This document shows positions 1,545-10,851 of a stretch of 35,541 nt of DNA, piece by piece. Positions within the stretch are counted from its first letter, which is position 1, and every line of letters begins with the position of its first letter. The DNA comes from Clostridia bacterium (GTDB lineage: Bacteria > Bacillota > Clostridia > Oscillospirales > CAG-382). The position numbers were made by a program, and so were the translations under genes. Under the pieces are notes generated by a model. It ran no database searches, was not told where the DNA came from, and worked only from the letters and a program-made list of their open reading frames with translations. The stretch covers positions 1-35,541 of the forward strand of contig JAGBXS010000107.1 of NCBI GenBank assembly GCA_017629175.1, written 5' to 3'.

Positions 1545-1573
1545 TTGACAAACCGAGGAAAAAAGAGTACACT
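1545..1573 (+). promoter_or_regulatory. Sigma-A promoter of the mgtE leader
   Basis: A perfect -35 box TTGACA (1545-1550), a 17-base spacer and a -10 box TACACT (1568-1573). Transcription would start near 1580, giving an mgtE leader of about 130 bases that contains the small ORF and the attenuator-like structures described separately. Confidence 0.75.
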
Positions 1574-1598
1574 ACACATATACTACCAAAGAAAGAGA

Positions 1599-1680
1599 GG
1601 AAAACCCGTAATGGACACAGGACGAAGTAGTCGGCAAGACCGAGAAGCAGTTCCCATACGGGGCTTTTCTCGCCGTTTTT
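1599..1680 (+). promoter_or_regulatory. Candidate attenuator or riboregulator in the mgtE leader
   Basis: Two mutually exclusive structures can be drawn. (a) A long stem pairs 1599-1604 with 1665-1670 and 1605-1610 with 1657-1662, with a 2-base bulge at 1663-1664. (b) An intrinsic terminator pairs ACGG (1658-1661) with CCGT (1673-1676), plus a C-G pair (1664/1672), followed by TTTTT (1676-1680). Both need 1658-1662, so stem (a) would act as an antiterminator. Stem (a) also covers part of the leader ORF ribosome binding site and places its start codon just inside the helix. The sequence does not match the M-box (ykoK) magnesium riboswitch as I know it. The mechanism is inference; the overlapping structures are seen directly. 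Confidence 0.6.
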
Positions 1681-1685
1681 GCTAG
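1611..1685 (+). CDS. 24-residue leader peptide upstream of mgtE
   Basis: This short ORF runs from ATG at 1611 to TAG at 1683-1685. An AGAGAGG ribosome binding site (1594-1600) sits about 10 bases upstream. The peptide starts MDTGRSSRQD, has an acidic-proline section (REAVP) and ends RGFSRRFC, so it is strongly basic and Arg-rich (six Arg). It lies wholly between a good promoter and mgtE and overlaps the terminator hairpin: codons 16-18 form one arm and codons 21-22 the other. A ribosome on this ORF would therefore control folding of the leader. The layout recalls the enterobacterial MgtL leader of mgtA, but I see no clear sequence match and do not recognise a family. It could also be a chance frame inside a structured RNA. 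Confidence 0.55.
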   Translation: MDTGRSSRQDREAVPIRGFSRRFC

Positions 1686-1709
1686 TCTATTCAGGTAAAA
1701 ACGTAACCA

Positions 1710-3083
1710 ATGAAGCAATGGATGGAATTGCAGGGGGAGGAGTTCGCCCTCCGCTTGCAGGGGATGCTGGAGAAGAAGCAGTACCGTGAATTGCGAGGAG
1801 CCTTCTCTCTGTTCGAAGCCCCGGACATTGCCCAGCTTTTTGGGCAGTTCGAAGAAAAAGAAATGCTTTTGCTCTTCCGTATTCTTCCCAAGGACACCGC
1901 CGCAGAGGTGTTTGTGGAAATGGAAGCGGATCAAAAGGAATCGCTGATCAACTCCTTCAGCGATGCTTACCTCCAGGAGGTGCTCTCGGAGCTTTATATC
2001 GACGATACGGTAGAGCTGATCGAGGAAATGCCCGCCGGGGTGGTAAAGAGAATTCTGCGGAACGCCGACGAGGAATCCCGTGAGGCCATCAACCGCATTT
2101 TGCGTTACCCCAAGGACAGCGCGGGAAGCATGATGACCACGGAGTACGTGCGGCTTTACAAGGACATGACCGTGGCGGAAGCCTTTGAGCGCATCCGTCG
2201 GGACGCCTATGACAAAGAGACGGTCTACACCTGCTACGTCACCGAGCGGAACCGTTTGCTCATCGGCGTGGTCACCGTCCGTGACCTGCTGATGGCGGAG
2301 GAAGATGCCGTTATCGGCGACATTATGACGGAGAACGTGATCTTTGCCGAGACCATGGACGACAGAGAATCCGTAGCCAACGCCATGAGTAAATACGACT
2401 TTCTGGCGTTGCCCGTGGTGGATAAGGGCAAGCGGCTGGTGGGTATCGTCACCTACGACGATGCTTCCGACGTTTTGCAGGAAGAGATCACGGAAGATAT
2501 TGAGAAGATGGCGGCAATCGTCCCCACGGATAAGCCTTACCTGCGCACCGGCACCTGGGAGACCTGGAAGAGCCGTATTCCCTGGCTGATGCTGTTGTTG
2601 CTTTCCGCCACCTTTACCGGGGCTATTTTGTCCTCTTACGAATCCGCTCTCAGCAAGGTTGCCATCCTCACCGTGTTCATCCCCATGCTCATGGGTACGG
2701 CGGGTAACGCGGGCAGCCAGGCTTCCGTTGCGGTGATCCGCGCCCTCTCCTTGGGAGAGGTACAGATGCGGGACGTGTTCGCCGTACTGTGGAAGGAGCT
2801 GCGAGTCGCCCTCCTTTGCGGTATCGCTTTGGGTGCGGTAGGCTTTGGAAAAGCCATCCTGCTGGACGGTGCTTCCGTAATGGTTGCCTTGGTGGTCAGC
2901 TTGACACTGGCACTCACCGTTTTGATGGCAAAGCTGGCGGGCTGTCTGCTCCCCTTGGGTGCCAAGCGGGTGGGTCTTGACCCCGCCGTCATGGCAAGCC
3001 CCTTCATCACCACCATCGTGGACACTCTGTCCTTGTTGGTGTATTTCGCCGTGGCAACGGCATTGATCCCGGAGCTTGGGTAA
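1710..3083 (+). CDS. mgtE: Magnesium transporter MgtE
   Basis: MgtE is a homodimeric inner-membrane Mg2+ channel gated by its own cytoplasmic magnesium-sensing domains. This 457-residue protein has the usual order: an N-terminal helical superhelix domain (about 1-130), two CBS domains (about 145-265, with MMTTEYVRL and IMTENVIFAE at their starts), a connecting helix, and a membrane domain of five helices from about residue 290. The GTAGNAGSQAS stretch near residue 329 is the conserved pore-region signature. The length is typical. The start at ATG 1710 follows an in-frame stop at 1704-1706. Its ribosome binding site (AGG at 1693-1695, 14 bases away) is weak, which fits translational coupling to the leader ORF that ends at 1685. 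Confidence 0.96.
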   Translation: MKQWMELQGEEFALRLQGMLEKKQYRELRGAFSLFEAPDIAQLFGQFEEKEMLLLFRILPKDTAAEVFVEMEADQKESLINSFSDAYLQEVLSELYIDDTVELIEEMPAGVVKRILRNADEESREAINRILRYPKDSAGSMMTTEYVRLYKDMTVAEAFERIRRDAYDKETVYTCYVTERNRLLIGVVTVRDLLMAEEDAVIGDIMTENVIFAETMDDRESVANAMSKYDFLALPVVDKGKRLVGIVTYDDASDVLQEEITEDIEKMAAIVPTDKPYLRTGTWETWKSRIPWLMLLLLSATFTGAILSSYESALSKVAILTVFIPMLMGTAGNAGSQASVAVIRALSLGEVQMRDVFAVLWKELRVALLCGIALGAVGFGKAILLDGASVMVALVVSLTLALTVLMAKLAGCLLPLGAKRVGLDPAVMASPFITTIVDTLSLLVYFAVATALIPELG

Positions 3084-3801: not shown

Positions 3802-6800
3802 GTGACAAAAAGTGCCATGAAAACCAGGCTGAAGGAGTCCCTTGCCATCATAGGGGAAACGGCAGAGCGAGGAGAAACGGAATGGGTGGCAGACAACTAC
3901 TACCTGATCCACCGCTACAAGGATCTCCCCAAAAAAGGAGGGTGCTTCCGCTATCCCGAGGCGGCAGAGCTGATGGCGGCCTATCTGGCGGAGCAGGGAT
4001 GGAAGTGCGATGAAGAAAGCCTCTGCCGCCATTTGCGGGAACGGAGTGCCCAAAGCCCCCTCTCCTACGGGGTGATCTCCGCCATTCCCGCCGCCTTGGC
4101 CTACTGCACCATTCTGCGGATCGGGGATATCTGCAGGGGCGAAAAGAACGCCGCCTTGCTTCCCGAGACGGTGGGGGTGCTCAGAGAGCTTTCCGAGATC
4201 CGCGGGAGTGAGCTGTTCACCTACGGGTGGCAGGCGGAGGCAGTCTTGGAAGAAAACGAGGAGGACTATCCCTTGTTTTCTCAAGAGACCAAAGCCTCCT
4301 ACCGCGCCGTGTTGGCAAAGTGCGCCCGCAGAAACCGCCGCACGGAAAAGGAGGAAGCTCTGCGGGTTGCAAAAGAGGCGAGAAACCAAGGCACCGCCAT
4401 GGGAAATTTGCTATTCCCCCGCCGTGTGTCTGCCCTGCCGGGGCTTTTGTGGTACGGTCTCTTCTTTGCCCTCATTCTTGCAGGCGGATGGCTTTTCTTC
4501 CGTCTGTTCGGTTGGCTGGCCATCCCTTTGCTGTTACCCTTGGGGGCTGGCATTGCACCCCTTTGCGACCGTTTGACGGCGTTCTTTTGCCAAGACCACG
4601 CCCCCTTGCGGTTGCAGATCACGGAGATCCCGGAAAAAGGGCGCACCGTGGTGGCGGTGGCAACCCTGTTCTCGGGGAAAGAGGATTACGCCCGCCGTTT
4701 GGAGCGGTTTTACTATCTCAATCGGGATGAAAATCTGTATTTCTGCCTCCTTGCTGACCTGCCCGCCGGGAAGGAACGGAAGGCGCCCGGGGACGCAGAG
4801 CTGATCAGGCAAGCCAAGGACGCCATAGACCTGCTGAACAAACGTCACGGGGAACGGTTCTTCCTGCTGTACCGCGACCGCGTCAAGCAGGACGACGGCA
4901 GTTACAGCGGCAAGGAGCGGAAGCGGGGCGCCGTGGGGATGCTGATCCGACGGCTTTCCGGGGTGGACGCGGGGAATCTCTACGGCGCCTGCCCTGCGGG
5001 GGTGAAGTATCTGCTGACCTTAGACGGGGACACGGAGCTTTCCCCCGGGATCCTGCGGGAGCTTTTGGGAGTTGCCCTCCACCCGGTGAACAAGCATTAC
5101 GGCGTGTTCCAGCCTGCGGTGCACACCGAGCTGTATTCTTCTTACCGCACCTATTTCACCCGCTTGGTCTCGGGATACGCGGGGGTATCCTTCTACGAGC
5201 GGGCCTGCTTTGACCGCAATATGAGCCTTTACGGGGAAGGGATCTTCTGCGGAAAAGGGCTAATCCGTCTGGATAAGTTCCGCCCCGCCATGGAGCTTCC
5301 CGAAGGCAAAATTCTCAGCCACGACCTGCCGGAGGGAGGCATTGCGGGCACCTTGTTGGTCTCCGATCTGGCGCTTTCCGACTCCGTGCCGGGAACTCCC
5401 GCCGCTTGGGACAAACGAGCCCACCGCTGGATCCGCGGGGACGTGCAGAATTTGTATTTTCTGTTCTCCCGGGAGTATCCCCTCTCCTCCGTGGCCCGTA
5501 GACAGATCCTTTGGAATTTGTTCCGCCACCTCACCCCCGTGGCGGCCTTGGTTTCCTTGGGGCTGGGCGCCATCTTCCTGCGGGGAGAGGTCTCTGCTTT
5601 GTTGGTTGCCTGCGCCGCTTACAGCTATCTGCTGTTGCCCTTTTCGGCAGGACTCTTGCGGGATCTCCTGCGTGGGAGTCCCTTTCTGCCAAGCCGCGCG
5701 CTTACGGCGGGAATCTCTGCAATAGCGGAATCCCTGCTCCGTCTGGCCTTGGATCTCGCCTCCTCCGCAAAGCAGGCCTTTCTCGCCTTGGACGGGGTCT
5801 GCCGTTCCCTTTGGCGGATGCTGGTCTCCAAGAAAAAGCTGTTGGAATGGACCACCGCCGCCGACGCAGAGGGCGGGAAGAACACCTTACTTTACTACTT
5901 GCAAAAGGGACTCCCCGGAGCGGTGTTCGGGTGTTTGTTGTTCTTGCTTGGCGGAAGCTCGGTGTACCGCCTTTTGGGGCTGGTGTTCTTTTTGAATCCT
6001 CTTTTAGATACCCTGCTGTCCCGCCCTCTCTCCCGCGGGGGCGCGGTGCGGAAGGTGGCCGTTTCTCCAAAAGAAGCCGCTTTGCTTCGCCGACATGCGG
6101 CGGATGCCTTCGGGTTCTTTACCGACACGGTATCTGCCGACACCCATTTTCTCCCGCCGGATAACCTTCAGCTTTCCCCCTTTCGGGATCTTGCCCTGCG
6201 CACCTCCCCCACCAATATAGGGATGTACCTCACCTCGGTGCTTGCCGCTTACGATTTGGGCTTTATCGACAGCAAGGAGACCGCAGACCGCTTGGAACGC
6301 ACCCTTTCCGCCGTGGAGGGGTTGCCCAAGGTGCGAGGAAACCTTTACAACTGGTACGACCTCAAGAACTTATCGGTTTTGGGAGAGGGCTTCGTCTCCT
6401 TTGTAGACAGCGGAAACTTCGTGGTCTGCCTGTTGGCGGTGGCGGAGGGACTTGCGGAATACGGAGACGCGGAAGAGCGATTTCCTGCCTTGGAGGCACA
6501 ATGTCGCCGTTTGGCGGAAGGAACGGATCTCGCCTTCTTCTACAACCAAAAGAAGGAGCTGTTCTCCTTGGGCTGGAGCGAGAAAAAGCAAGCCCTTGAA
6601 AGCGGATGCTACGACCTCTTGATGAGTGAGGCGCGGACGGCATCCTACTACGCCGTGGCAACCGGGGCGGCAGCGGGGAAGCATTGGGACGCCCTGGGGC
6701 GGACGGTGACTTCCGACACAGGCTACGTGGGGATGGTCAGCTGGTCGGGAACCATGTTTGAATACCTGATGCCCCAGCTGTTCCTCCCCATCTACCGCAA

Positions 6801-9800
6801 TTCCTTCGGGGAAGAGACCTTTCTCTTCGCCCTGCGCGCCCAAAGAAAGGCGGCGGTGAAAAAGCTGTGGGGGATCTCGGAATCCGGGTATTACGCCTTT
6901 GACGGCGGTCTGCATTACCGTTACCACGCCCACGGGGTGCGCAAGCTGGCACTCCGCAGGGATGCCCGCGGGGAGACGGTGATCTCCCCCTATTCCTCCT
7001 ACCTTGCCCTTGCCGTCTCCCCCGCCGCCGCGGTGAAGAACCTGGAAGCCTTGGAGAAGCAGGGAATGTACGGCAAATACGGCTTGTACGAGGCCTTGGA
7101 CCTCACTCCCGGCAGAAGCAACGGTGGGGTGGCGGTGCAAAGCTATATGGCTCACCACGTGGGGATGAGCATCACCGCCGTGGCAAACGCCCTCTCCGGC
7201 GGGATCTTCGTCCGCCGCTTTATGGCAGACCCGCGGATGAACGCCGCGGCCGGGCTGTTGCAGGAAAAACTGCCGCCCCACCCCGTGAGGCTTTCCCGCA
7301 AGGTATACCCTGTGCAAAAGAAGCTCCCCGCTAATACGCCCTTGTTTGCAGGGGAATCGGTGCGCCCGGACTTTGCCTCCCCGAAGGCGGTGTTGCTTTC
7401 CAAAAACGGATTTTCCGCCGCCGTTACCTCCTTGGGACACGTCTCCCTGCAGAAGAACGGCGTTTTGGTAAACGAGTGCCGCACGGAACGGTTCTCCGCC
7501 GCCCATACCTTGACGGTGGCGTTCCCGGAGGATGGGCTTCTCCGAGGCTGTACACCCTTCTTCGGGGAGGGAGAATACGCCTTTGAGACCGACGGAAGCT
7601 CTGCCAGCCTGATCTCCTCCGCCAAGCACTTCTCCGGGAAAGTGCAGTTTTCCTTCTGCAAAAAAGGAGATTGCTTCCGTGCAGAGGCGGTTTGTGAGCA
7701 TCGGAAGCCGCGAGAGGTGCTGTTCGCCTTCGAGCCGGTTTTGGAGGAGGCTAAGGCCTACGATGCCCACCCCGCCTTCTCAAAGCTGTTCATCGAAAGC
7801 GAGTTTGACCAAGAGAAGAAGATCCTTTACTTCTCCCGCAGAGGGCGGAAAAACGGCAAGACGGTGCGCTATCTCGCCGTGGCGTTGAAGGAGGATCTCC
7901 CCTTCTCCTTCACCACCTGCAAGGACGGCTTCCCGGCGGAATCCTTGAACCGTCCCCACGCCCTTGCCGCGCCTCCCGACGGGAAAACGGGGGTGTGCGT
8001 TGACCCCTTCTGCCTGTTTAGAACCTCCCCGACTCCCAATGGGAAGGCCACCCTTCTCATCGCCATGGGGGGCACCAAGACGGAAGTCCAAAACGCGGTC
8101 CTCACCGCACGGCACGAAAAGGAAAGCTACCCCGCCACGGCGTCCAATACCGCCTGCGACCTGCTTTCCCATGTGCTGTTCCCCCGTTCTCCCGCACCGG
8201 GTGACCTGCCCGTCTACCGCAGAGAAATGCTGTGGAAGCACGGGATCTCCGGGGACTTTCCCCTGCTGGGGATGGAAATGGGAGAATCCGACGGCAAGGA
8301 AGCACGTGAGCTGTTGAAGGGCTTTTTGGAGCTGACCAAGGCAGGGATCCGCACGGAGCTGATCTTCCTTCCCGCGGGGGACGGACAGTACTTCCGCCCG
8401 GCGGAAAAGAAGCTTCTCGCCATGATCGAGGAGCTGGAGCTGAGCGGATTTTTGAATGCACGGGGCGGGATCTTTCTCCTCAGAAGCGAGCAGGCGGAGG
8501 ACGCGCTCCTTGCCGTTCTCCCCTCCCTTTGCGCCCTGTGGAAGCACCCCGCGAAAATGGAAAAACGGCTTCATGCCCCAAGCATTCACCGGTTCACTCC
8601 GGCGTTGGATGCCCTCGTTCCTCTGGAAGTGCCCGTTCCGGAAAACGCCGTTCCCACGGCGGACGGCTTTGGGGATGACCACGGCTACACCCTCAACAAG
8701 GGGTCTTTTCCCCCCGGCGTGCGCGCCTTTGTTCTGGCGGGAAAAAACGTGGGAAGCATCGTTACCGCCTCCTCCTTGGGATATACCTTTTTGGGCAACG
8801 CCCAACAGCACCGCCTCACCCCCGCACCGGGAGACCCGGGCAGTCTTTCCCCGGGGGAAAAGCTTTACCTCCGCAGGGAGGGTGTGCTTTACGATCTCCT
8901 TGCCTGTGCAGGGAAGGTGAGATGGGGCAGCGGCGTGGCAACCTGGGAAGGACTTGCAGGCGGACTCTCCTACACCGTGGTGGTGTTCTGTTGTGGGGAA
9001 AAGCCCTTTAAGGTGGTGCGGGTCATGCTCTCTTCCAAGGGAGAAAGCCCCGGAGAGCTGATCCTCACCGTCAAGCCTGCCATGGGAAGCGGCATCACTC
9101 CCAATCCCCATCTCTGGAAAGTGGAACGGGCAGGCGCCATTCTGTTCCGCTCGGGGCATGATCCCGCCTTTGACAGCGGGGTCGGCGTCCTCTACGCCAA
9201 GGGCTCTACCCCGTTGTATTCCTCGGAAGCCCTCTACGGCATTCCCTCGGAAAGCGGCTTTTACGACTTGGCGGGGCTTTCCGTCCGATACAACTACGCC
9301 ACCTTCCTGCTGGGCGGAGGCGAGGAAGAGAAGACGGAGGAGCTTCTCGCCATGGCGAAGGAGCTTTCTGCCGACGCAGAGCAAGCGGGTGCGGAAGCCT
9401 TTGCCGCAGAGATGATACCGCCCATAGAGATCCTCACCCGCTCCCGCGGGCAAAATCTGTTCTTGAACCGCTTCCTCCCCTATCAGATCGCCGCCTCCCG
9501 CTTTTACGCCAGGGCGTCCTTCCGTCAATCCGGCGGTGCTTACGGCTTCCGGGATCAGCTGCAGGATTGTCTCGCCTTGGTATACGCAAAGCCCGCCGAG
9601 GTACGGGAGCATATCCTCCGCTGTTGCAGGCATCAATACGAGGAGGGGGACGTTCAGCATTGGTGGCACGAGGGAGGCAGAGGCATCCGAACCACCTGCT
9701 CCGACGACCTGCTGTGGCTTCCCTTGGTGGTGGCGGATTACGTGAAGAAGACGGGAGACGAAAGCATTCTCGCCGCCCAAGCGGAATATATCGCTTCCCC

Positions 9801-10851
9801 GCCTCTGACGGGGGAAAACGAGCGCTACGAGCTGCCCGCCAAAAGCTTTTTAAGCGAAACGGTACTGCTCCATTGCATCCGCGCCTTCGCCGCGGCGGAT
9901 AAGCGGGGCAAGCACGGCTTACTGCTCATGGGCATCTGCGATTGGAACGATGCCTTCTCCGCCGTAGGCGCAGAGGGAAAGGGCGAGAGCGTGTTCTCCA
10001 CCTTCCTCTTCGTAGTGGCGGCCAAGGCCTTCCTGCCCCTGCTCCGCAAGGAGAACCCGGAAAGCGCCGCCCATCTGGAGCAGACCGCGGCGGAGCTTTT
10101 GAAAAACGCCGAGGAGACCGCCTTTGACGGAGATCGCTACCTCCGCGCCTTCTGCGACGATGGGCATATTTTGGGCAAGGCAGGAAACACGGAGTGTGCC
10201 GTGGACATCCTGTCCCAAGCCTTCGCTTTGTTTGCGGGGGCGGACAAAGCCCGCTGCGAAATAGCCTTACAAACCGCCAAGAAGGCGCTGTACGATCCCC
10301 GCCATAGGATCTTAAAGCTGTTTGACCCGCCCTTTGATCAGGGAGACACCCCTGCGGGCTACGTGCGGGGCTATCCCCCCGGGGTGCGGGAGAACGGCGG
10401 GCAATACACCCACGCCGCCATCTGGGGAGCGAAGGCCTTCCTGGAGATCGGCGACAGAGAGACCGCCTTGGAGATCCTGGCAGGTGCCAACCCTCTGTGG
10501 CGAAACGCCTCTCAAAAGGAAGCCGCCCTCTACCGCTCGGAGGCCTACGCCATGTGCGCAGACATCTACGGCGGACAACCGGCAGGGAGAGGCGGCTGGA
10601 GCTTTTACACCGGCTCGGGGTCTTGGTATTACAAGGTATTCCTGGAGGATCTGCTGGGCATCCGCCTTTCCGCAGGAAACCGTATTCTGGAGCTTTACCC
10701 CCGCATTCCCTACCGCGCGGTGTTGCGCTTTCACGGCAGGATCACCATCGAGGTCTCCCCGGAAACGGAGGATACCATGGACGGCACACCCGTCACCTTC
10801 CCCATCGTGTTGCCCGACGGAGAGCATAAAGTGACAGCAAAAATGCGTTAA
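3802..10851 (+). CDS. Cyclic beta-1,2-glucan synthase-like protein (GT84 + GH94)
   Basis: This 2349-residue membrane protein resembles NdvB/Cgs, which build linear beta-1,2-glucan from UDP-glucose, trim it and close it into rings. Order seen: N-terminal region with two membrane helices (about 213-250); a GT84 glycosyltransferase with a DGDTEL metal-binding motif near residue 410, SHDLPEGG near 505 and HRWIRGD near 543; more helices (about 575-620 and 703-740); a glycoamylase-like middle domain with SYMAHHVGMS near 1115; and a GH94 phosphorylase domain with GFRDQLQD near 1914, GDVQHWWH near 1955 and the catalytic-acid motif DWND near 2046. Proteobacterial homologues reach about 2800 residues, so this is compact, with a shorter N-terminus. 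The GTG start has AAAGGGG 10 bases upstream; ATG at 3817 lacks a close site. The exact product (cyclic or linear) is unproven. Confidence 0.9.
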   Translation: MTKSAMKTRLKESLAIIGETAERGETEWVADNYYLIHRYKDLPKKGGCFRYPEAAELMAAYLAEQGWKCDEESLCRHLRERSAQSPLSYGVISAIPAALAYCTILRIGDICRGEKNAALLPETVGVLRELSEIRGSELFTYGWQAEAVLEENEEDYPLFSQETKASYRAVLAKCARRNRRTEKEEALRVAKEARNQGTAMGNLLFPRRVSALPGLLWYGLFFALILAGGWLFFRLFGWLAIPLLLPLGAGIAPLCDRLTAFFCQDHAPLRLQITEIPEKGRTVVAVATLFSGKEDYARRLERFYYLNRDENLYFCLLADLPAGKERKAPGDAELIRQAKDAIDLLNKRHGERFFLLYRDRVKQDDGSYSGKERKRGAVGMLIRRLSGVDAGNLYGACPAGVKYLLTLDGDTELSPGILRELLGVALHPVNKHYGVFQPAVHTELYSSYRTYFTRLVSGYAGVSFYERACFDRNMSLYGEGIFCGKGLIRLDKFRPAMELPEGKILSHDLPEGGIAGTLLVSDLALSDSVPGTPAAWDKRAHRWIRGDVQNLYFLFSREYPLSSVARRQILWNLFRHLTPVAALVSLGLGAIFLRGEVSALLVACAAYSYLLLPFSAGLLRDLLRGSPFLPSRALTAGISAIAESLLRLALDLASSAKQAFLALDGVCRSLWRMLVSKKKLLEWTTAADAEGGKNTLLYYLQKGLPGAVFGCLLFLLGGSSVYRLLGLVFFLNPLLDTLLSRPLSRGGAVRKVAVSPKEAALLRRHAADAFGFFTDTVSADTHFLPPDNLQLSPFRDLALRTSPTNIGMYLTSVLAAYDLGFIDSKETADRLERTLSAVEGLPKVRGNLYNWYDLKNLSVLGEGFVSFVDSGNFVVCLLAVAEGLAEYGDAEERFPALEAQCRRLAEGTDLAFFYNQKKELFSLGWSEKKQALESGCYDLLMSEARTASYYAVATGAAAGKHWDALGRTVTSDTGYVGMVSWSGTMFEYLMPQLFLPIYRNSFGEETFLFALRAQRKAAVKKLWGISESGYYAFDGGLHYRYHAHGVRKLALRRDARGETVISPYSSYLALAVSPAAAVKNLEALEKQGMYGKYGLYEALDLTPGRSNGGVAVQSYMAHHVGMSITAVANALSGGIFVRRFMADPRMNAAAGLLQEKLPPHPVRLSRKVYPVQKKLPANTPLFAGESVRPDFASPKAVLLSKNGFSAAVTSLGHVSLQKNGVLVNECRTERFSAAHTLTVAFPEDGLLRGCTPFFGEGEYAFETDGSSASLISSAKHFSGKVQFSFCKKGDCFRAEAVCEHRKPREVLFAFEPVLEEAKAYDAHPAFSKLFIESEFDQEKKILYFSRRGRKNGKTVRYLAVALKEDLPFSFTTCKDGFPAESLNRPHALAAPPDGKTGVCVDPFCLFRTSPTPNGKATLLIAMGGTKTEVQNAVLTARHEKESYPATASNTACDLLSHVLFPRSPAPGDLPVYRREMLWKHGISGDFPLLGMEMGESDGKEARELLKGFLELTKAGIRTELIFLPAGDGQYFRPAEKKLLAMIEELELSGFLNARGGIFLLRSEQAEDALLAVLPSLCALWKHPAKMEKRLHAPSIHRFTPALDALVPLEVPVPENAVPTADGFGDDHGYTLNKGSFPPGVRAFVLAGKNVGSIVTASSLGYTFLGNAQQHRLTPAPGDPGSLSPGEKLYLRREGVLYDLLACAGKVRWGSGVATWEGLAGGLSYTVVVFCCGEKPFKVVRVMLSSKGESPGELILTVKPAMGSGITPNPHLWKVERAGAILFRSGHDPAFDSGVGVLYAKGSTPLYSSEALYGIPSESGFYDLAGLSVRYNYATFLLGGGEEEKTEELLAMAKELSADAEQAGAEAFAAEMIPPIEILTRSRGQNLFLNRFLPYQIAASRFYARASFRQSGGAYGFRDQLQDCLALVYAKPAEVREHILRCCRHQYEEGDVQHWWHEGGRGIRTTCSDDLLWLPLVVADYVKKTGDESILAAQAEYIASPPLTGENERYELPAKSFLSETVLLHCIRAFAAADKRGKHGLLLMGICDWNDAFSAVGAEGKGESVFSTFLFVVAAKAFLPLLRKENPESAAHLEQTAAELLKNAEETAFDGDRYLRAFCDDGHILGKAGNTECAVDILSQAFALFAGADKARCEIALQTAKKALYDPRHRILKLFDPPFDQGDTPAGYVRGYPPGVRENGGQYTHAAIWGAKAFLEIGDRETALEILAGANPLWRNASQKEAALYRSEAYAMCADIYGGQPAGRGGWSFYTGSGSWYYKVFLEDLLGIRLSAGNRILELYPRIPYRAVLRFHGRITIEVSPETEDTMDGTPVTFPIVLPDGEHKVTAKMR

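Follow-up and report, generated by a model that had tools for sequence, protein, structure and literature searches.

A conserved leader ORF ahead of clostridial magnesium importers and its candidate role as a leader-peptide switch

Upstream of mgtE in the window, the 35,541-nucleotide stretch of clostridial DNA analysed here, lies a leader open reading frame (uORF) of a family that is widespread over Clostridia and is found ahead of two Mg2+ importers of unrelated kinds, MgtE and MgtA, which share no ancestry and have Mg2+ import as their common role. That this is a conserved leader ORF of Mg2+ importers we hold to be almost certain. The ORF is conserved, it is associated with mgtE and mgtA, it shows a codon bias, and its RNA pairings have statistical support. 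By analogy with enterobacterial systems, the leader is probably Mg2+-responsive, and we lean towards a cis-acting leader-peptide switch for Mg2+ importers, in which translation of the uORF would decide between competing stems and low Mg2+ would lead to importer synthesis.

The first-pass annotation of this region had described a consensus promoter followed by a 24-codon ORF (1611-1685) with its own ribosome binding site, and both elements stand. The promoter-like site is of the sigma-70 type (TTGACA at 1545, second hexamer ending at 1573), and 51 of 58 related leaders have a TTGAC-type hexamer at most 110 nt ahead of their uORF; the ORF, preceded by GAGAGG at 1595-1600, is conserved. All features are collected in Table 1. 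Two neighbors of the leader should be mentioned, namely a terminator-like hairpin 3' of dnaJ (1514-1537), between dnaJ and the mgtE leader, and a very long ORF of 2349 aa (3802-10851) downstream of mgtE on the same strand.

Table 1. Features of the mgtE leader in the window.
Feature	Position	Strand	Description and basis
Promoter-like site	1545-1573	+	sigma-70-type; -35 TTGACA 1545-1550, 17-nt spacer, second hexamer TACACT 1568-1573
Shine-Dalgarno (SD) of leader ORF, GAGAGG	1595-1600	+	sequence; kept in relatives L032, L033, L041, L034
Stem (i) 5' arm, uORF SD and start codon	1597-1614	+	pairs with 1653-1671 in minimum-energy fold; kept in relatives
Leader ORF (uORF), 24 codons and stop, MDTGRSSRQDREAVPIRGFSRRFC	1611-1685	+	orthologous uORFs in same-genus mgtE leaders
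Peptide N-terminal motif M-D-x-G-R-S-S	1611-1631	+	codon table of 58 mgtE-derived leaders; genome-wide scan
Stem (ii), P1 5' arm, window uORF codons 4-9	1620-1635	+	fold of 1620-1690; family-wide own-partner signal
Second CGA, window codon 5	1623-1625	+	
In-frame CGA (Arg), window codon 11, Asp-Arg-Glu variant	1641-1643	+	conserved codon
Stem (i) 3' arm, within uORF	1653-1671	+	folds, relatives, family-wide pairing signal
P1 3' arm, across uORF stop	1672-1688	+	fold of 1620-1690
Hairpin (iii), 1674-1683 with 1694-1703	1674-1703	+	excludes P1; covers region just before mgtE
mgtE, magnesium transporter, 457 aa	1710-3083	+	TIGR00400, 466.6 bits (cut-off 232.75)

As a DNA BLAST search with the window leader returned nothing beyond close relatives, orthologous leaders were collected via the MgtE protein. 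mgtE was found in 21 of the 24 genomes of the window genus, whose leaders have in common an SD followed by ATG GAY NNN GGA CGA AGT AGC GGC ATA AA, encoding MDxGRSSGIK. The window clade presents a variant of this element (MDTGRSSRQDRE), and related ORFs are found in other genera of the family and in other families of the order (MDAGSSTAGTVPRSRQ, MDAGGSRSTSKGRSRR, METGSSKGKPRSTLF and MDAGSSGANPGGRSRQ). For counting, a uORF was defined as an SD-preceded ORF beginning M-[DESN]-x-[GDSPA], with dinucleotide shuffles as the control. Such a uORF was present in 20/20 testable same-genus mgtE leaders (0.65 in shuffles; a leader on a truncated contig was left out), in 9/11 leaders elsewhere in the family (0.05 in shuffles; restricted to leaders with a placeable gene start) and in 34/59 leaders across the order (3.1 in shuffles). 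A strict rule retained 13, 7 and 20 leaders at the levels of genus, family and order, respectively, and none in shuffles. A conserved start, an SD and an open frame ahead of a consistent gene, as found here, are what generally characterizes ribosome-mediated leader-peptide attenuators. It should be noted that related sequences are not independent, and the p values in this work are therefore optimistic.

The same association was obtained from a scan that used no gene information. Some 85,000 prokaryote species genomes (GTDB contigs) were scanned with the pattern AGGTGN{4,8}ATGGACGCNGGNAGTARY, corresponding to the SD and the first 18 nt of the ORF, and yielded at least 80 loci, all in Clostridia or related records; the uORF carriers include at least two genomes outside the class, as well as the culturable Neobittarella massiliensis. 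Among the 80 listed loci, 70 have mgtE downstream in the same orientation, in most cases with its start 100-260 nt away. Unusually long gaps between uORF and importer, of about 609 and 360 nt, were seen in L154 and L222. The other 10 listed loci precede an MgtA-type Mg2+ P-type ATPase or a fragment of one, an association that lay beyond the single-window view of the first reading. Eight of these ATPases were scanned against NCBIfam, and six of the eight scored as magnesium-translocating P-type ATPases above the curated cut-offs. The ATPase of L202 is cut by the contig end and has a magnesium-translocating P-type ATPase as its best NCBIfam match, while in L200 (810-1418) what follows the uORF is a P-type ATPase remnant of 203 aa comprising only the actuator region, apparently a decayed mgtA. 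The L170 ATPase was assigned by eye, and the L144 gene amounts to 56 residues on its contig. A looser pattern, AGGTGN{4,8}ATGGAYNNNGGNAGTARY, applied to 398 phylum and 392 class genomes, added seven matches, five at mgtE and two at an MgtA-type gene. The reversed control pattern matched three times among the class genomes and not at all among the phylum genomes, so the number of looser-pattern matches is near chance, although their gene context is not.

The family peptide reads M-[D/E]-[small]-G-(R)-S-[S/N]...R-S, with A/S/T as the small residue in the stated consensus. In all 83 distinct scan hits, the frame remains open for at least 15 codons past the pattern, with no early in-frame stop; it is open for at least 10 codons in 100% of the 83 hits vs 60% of shuffles. 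An in-frame CGA was counted 79 times in these hits, as compared with 20 and 11 times in the other two frames, and the first Arg codon (codons 8-18) is CGA in 64 of 72 scan leaders. Likewise, of 55 first Arg codons in the set of 58 mgtE-derived leaders, 50 are CGA, with Ser as the next residue in 41; in the downstream genes, CGA accounts for 96 of 1551 Arg codons (6%). Codon 2 of the 58 leaders encodes Asp (53) or Glu (5), which must be read knowing that M[D/E] was an entry requirement of this set; L111, L115, L124 and L134 are uORF-like leaders without an acidic residue 2. Codon 3 encodes Ala, Ser, Thr or Val with the third base free, and both ATG and GTG serve as start codons.

An acidic/Pro section and an Arg-rich end had been noted in the peptide, which is not what the relatives preserve. 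In 22 close ungapped pairs, 38 synonymous and 115 non-synonymous codon differences were counted, giving no purifying selection in the C-terminal half, and the codon-position test on close ungapped uORF pairs found no third-position excess. The conserved parts are the N-terminal M-D/E-x-G-S-S and a single Arg codon, almost always CGA. The codon conservation looked for in related mgtE leaders is present for the frame, the N-terminus and CGA, and the tests showed no synonymous bias in the C-terminal half. As purifying selection is lacking beyond the N-terminal motif, Mg2+ sensing by the peptide would rest on few residues, and judging from the sequences, the peptide would matter, if at all, via its N-terminus and the CGA codon. 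The leader peptides had no match in a Pfam search. Of 34 tRNA matches in the genome, 30 had loci that were inspected; the Arg anticodons were ACG, CCG, CCT and TCT, and since no UCG anticodon was among these 30, CGA is probably read by tRNA-Arg ACG, a tRNA that decodes CGA via inosine.

Three competing pairings recur in these leaders: the uORF start and SD with the uORF interior (stem i), the early codons with a pre-gene segment (stem ii, P1) and that segment with the gene SD (stem iii). A 12-bp stem (1599-1610/1657-1670) hiding the SD and start of the ORF had already been proposed for the window, and is borne out: at its full extent (1597-1614/1653-1671), it is part of the minimum-energy fold (z -2.8 and -2.4), masks the uORF SD and start, and recurs in L032, L041 and L034 by folding and in L033 by alignment. 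Family-wide, the start region pairs with the interior with a score of 17.2, as opposed to 13.9 in shuffles (p 5e-19; 57 representatives <80% identical). P1 in the window (1620-1635 with 1672-1688) has an energy of -24.1 kcal/mol (z -2.66) and competes with stem (i). For duplexes of uORF codons 3-16 with the pre-gene region, the mean is -31.7 kcal/mol for own partners and -26.1 kcal/mol for swapped ones (p 2e-18), and the own-partner P1 score of 15.6 vs 13.65 for foreign partners (p 4e-6; 54 representatives) exceeds all 2000 permutations. Changes on both sides of P1 are exemplified by GGCACTGTTCC/GGAACNGTGTC, GGCATAAACC/GGTTTATGTC and CATAAGC/GCTTATG. For stem (iii), the P1 3' arm with the gene SD, the own-vs-foreign signal is modest (p 0.03), and p 0.0004 was obtained against shuffled sequences. 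When the 5' arm is left off, the gene SD has a mean unpaired probability of 0.25, which rises to 0.34 when the arm is included and to 0.36 when the upstream sequence is shuffled (p 0.0075 and 0.00017).

These pairings are not equally evident everywhere. Hairpin (iii) folds in L032 and L041 and is absent from the window minimum-energy fold; the window clade has divergent versions of all three stems, and since the window mgtE SD is weak and distant, stem (iii) is the least convincing one there. In many individual leaders, the switch is not visible in silico. When 100 leaders were aligned with MAFFT, RNAalifold predicted no pairs, as the leader interior is too variable, and an alignment of the joined 5' and 3' arms was dropped because P1 fell out of register. 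Pairing was therefore tested by swapping own for foreign partners, and it is in this form, rather than as RNAalifold pairs, that P1 and the gene-SD pairing find support.

Neither the M-box (RF00380, ykoK leader) nor any other Rfam family matches the window leader, in agreement with the initial remark that it does not resemble the M-box. M-box identity was rejected, as no covariance-model match reached the gathering score in the window. The M-box is also an mgtE leader element and turns up at the corresponding place in orthologous leaders within the order, but it is a direct Mg2+-binding aptamer without an ORF. It was detected in 3 of 20 order-level mgtE leaders lacking the uORF (L112, L137 and L102), and in uORF leaders in 0/20 of one set and 1/20 of another. 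This sharing of a slot is suggestive of a link to Mg2+, although not significant by itself. The one exception, L138 (135-294), has an M-box (117.7 bits) with a uORF-like ORF (MDTDSHRRNRISRY...) just downstream.

One should also consider a protein-free riboswitch, where the conserved nucleotides (GGNAGTAGY, CGAAGTA) and the stems would form an aptamer for Mg2+ or another ligand and the ORF would be incidental or part of the expression platform. Such a reading could account for the strong nucleotide-level conservation (CGA AGT), the long-range P1 with its own-partner signal and the M-box in the same slot in relatives. It does not, however, explain why an SD and a start codon, be it ATG or GTG, are always there, why 83/83 hits are without an early in-frame stop, why CGA stays in frame although motif spacing differs, or why codon 3 keeps to small residues with a free third base. 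The P1 interior is moreover highly variable, unlike an aptamer core, and no Rfam match was found; we thus consider the riboswitch unlikely.

Similarly improbable, in our estimate, is transcription attenuation, in which P1 or the 3' half of the ORF would be an intrinsic terminator whose formation is prevented by ribosome position. The 3' half had been annotated as such a terminator, but in isolation 1658-1680 folds at -4.6 kcal/mol (z -0.27), with 65/200 shuffles at least as good. In the window genus, a U-run often follows the P1 3' arm (GTGCTTCCTTTTT in L043, L045 and L047; GCCATGTCTTTTTTT in L034), and termination may for this reason play a part there. Many other families, however, have no U-run at this point, and the UUCCUUU found in g1 leaders, for example L043, is at the same time a complement of the gene SD AAAGGAA. 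As to the suggested coupling between uORF translation and mgtE transcription, uORF translation and mgtE expression do look linked via competing stems, while the family signal is stronger for pairing with the gene SD than for termination.

In the leader-peptide switch that we prefer, the uORF would be translated, and the progress of the ribosome over its first ~13 codons would pick among the three mutually exclusive stems. P1 in the family model joins uORF codons 4-11 to a pyrimidine-rich pre-gene segment, typically UACUUCC. P1 formation would sequester this segment, leaving the gene SD free and the importer on; with ribosomes on codons 4-11, or keeping them open, the segment would mask the gene SD and the importer would be off. 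Low Mg2+ would cause ribosomes to fail early on the uORF, by aborting at acidic residue 2 and/or halting at a slow CGA; the anti-SD segment would then be taken up by P1, leaving the importer gene open to translation. Slow decoding of CGA has a precedent in the Salmonella his leader (PMC4046918). By analogy with mgtQ, it is probably the ribosome itself that senses low Mg2+ via the uORF and turns the importer on, with Asp2 and CGA as the presumed points of failure; that stem choice proceeds exactly as drawn has about an even chance.

The nearest precedent is Salmonella mgtQ, an 8-codon ORF between mgtC and mgtB, where the Asp2 and Glu5 codons lower translation of the ORF, a change of stem frees the SD of mgtB, and mgtQ translation is inversely correlated with mgtB (PMC8092293). 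Both are short ORFs with a strong SD and, in most uORF leaders here, an acidic position 2; in mgtQ, and as predicted in the present family, stems overlapping the ORF alternate so as to cover or uncover the importer SD. The peptides differ, however, and mgtQ lies inside an enterobacterial operon with an ORF-internal arm freeing the SD, whereas the present ORF opens the transcript, carries a fixed CGA and precedes mgtE and mgtA in Clostridia. With mgtQ it has the single acidic residue 2 in common, without an Asp/Glu/Pro run, and the gene-SD pairing signal is modest.

The functional parallel to enterobacterial Mg2+ leader peptides, drawn from the outset, still appears to be the best reading. In mgtL, the enterobacterial mgtA leader, an EPDP motif destabilizes the ribosome and termination is Rho-dependent (PMC11282234). 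The present family is likewise an importer leader ORF with an N-terminal acidic residue, but the acidic/proline run is absent (window MDTGRSSRQDREAV..., consensus M-[D/E]-[small]-G-S-[S/N]) and the downstream gene is mostly mgtE, mgtA being found in 10/80 listed scan loci. By the same precedent (PMC11282234), uORF translation could decide Rho loading in the leader, and the two have in common an early acidic residue and a subsequent change in RNA structure; the recurrent pairing with the gene SD, however, points to translational control, and we regard this mechanism as very unlikely. A sensor of charged Arg, or a general translation-stress attenuator, stalling at CGA and unrelated to Mg2+, is scarcely credible despite CGA in 50/55 leaders, as Arg conservation is limited to one or two codons, whereas amino-acid attenuators employ codon runs, and every downstream gene seen is a Mg2+ importer.

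Two further systems were compared. The pe20 leader of M. tuberculosis (PMC12810186) is Mg2+-linked and combines an anti-SD/anti-anti-SD switch with uORFs, but it is driven by an M-box aptamer, is mycobacterial, and has other uORFs and another downstream gene. The SRC-65-1 mgtE motif (PMC11109978), also an RNA element upstream of mgtE, was rejected, being a riboswitch candidate confined to Thioalkalivibrio and of no relation. No report of a Firmicute mgtE or mgtA leader peptide was found in searches of open-access full text or in structured-RNA discovery papers, and the uORF family is apparently undescribed.

On balance, we favor a new Mg2+-sensing leader-peptide family, unrelated in sequence to mgtL and mgtQ, that would combine an N-terminal acidic residue with one invariant slow CGA, control both MgtE and MgtA and replace the M-box in many lineages, its range covering Clostridia plus at least two genomes from elsewhere. 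If true, Mg2+ sensing by the ribosome, so far described for a few leader peptides of enterobacteria, would extend to a large group of anaerobes from gut and rumen and to Clostridioides difficile relatives, suggesting that it arose more than once. Many mgtE and mgtA genes without an M-box would thereby be supplied with a regulator, and the invariant CGA would tie Mg2+ to decoding speed in a sharp and testable way.

Two carriers from the strict scan are recorded as Clostridioides difficile strains, and the element was found in 3/8 species of the genus Clostridioides. In L184, L202 and L225, from the Clostridioides difficile CD160 and CD10-165 records and a relative, the uORF lies ahead of mgtA, and its downstream codons are conserved as well (RSSHLFEE..YYFV.LISS).
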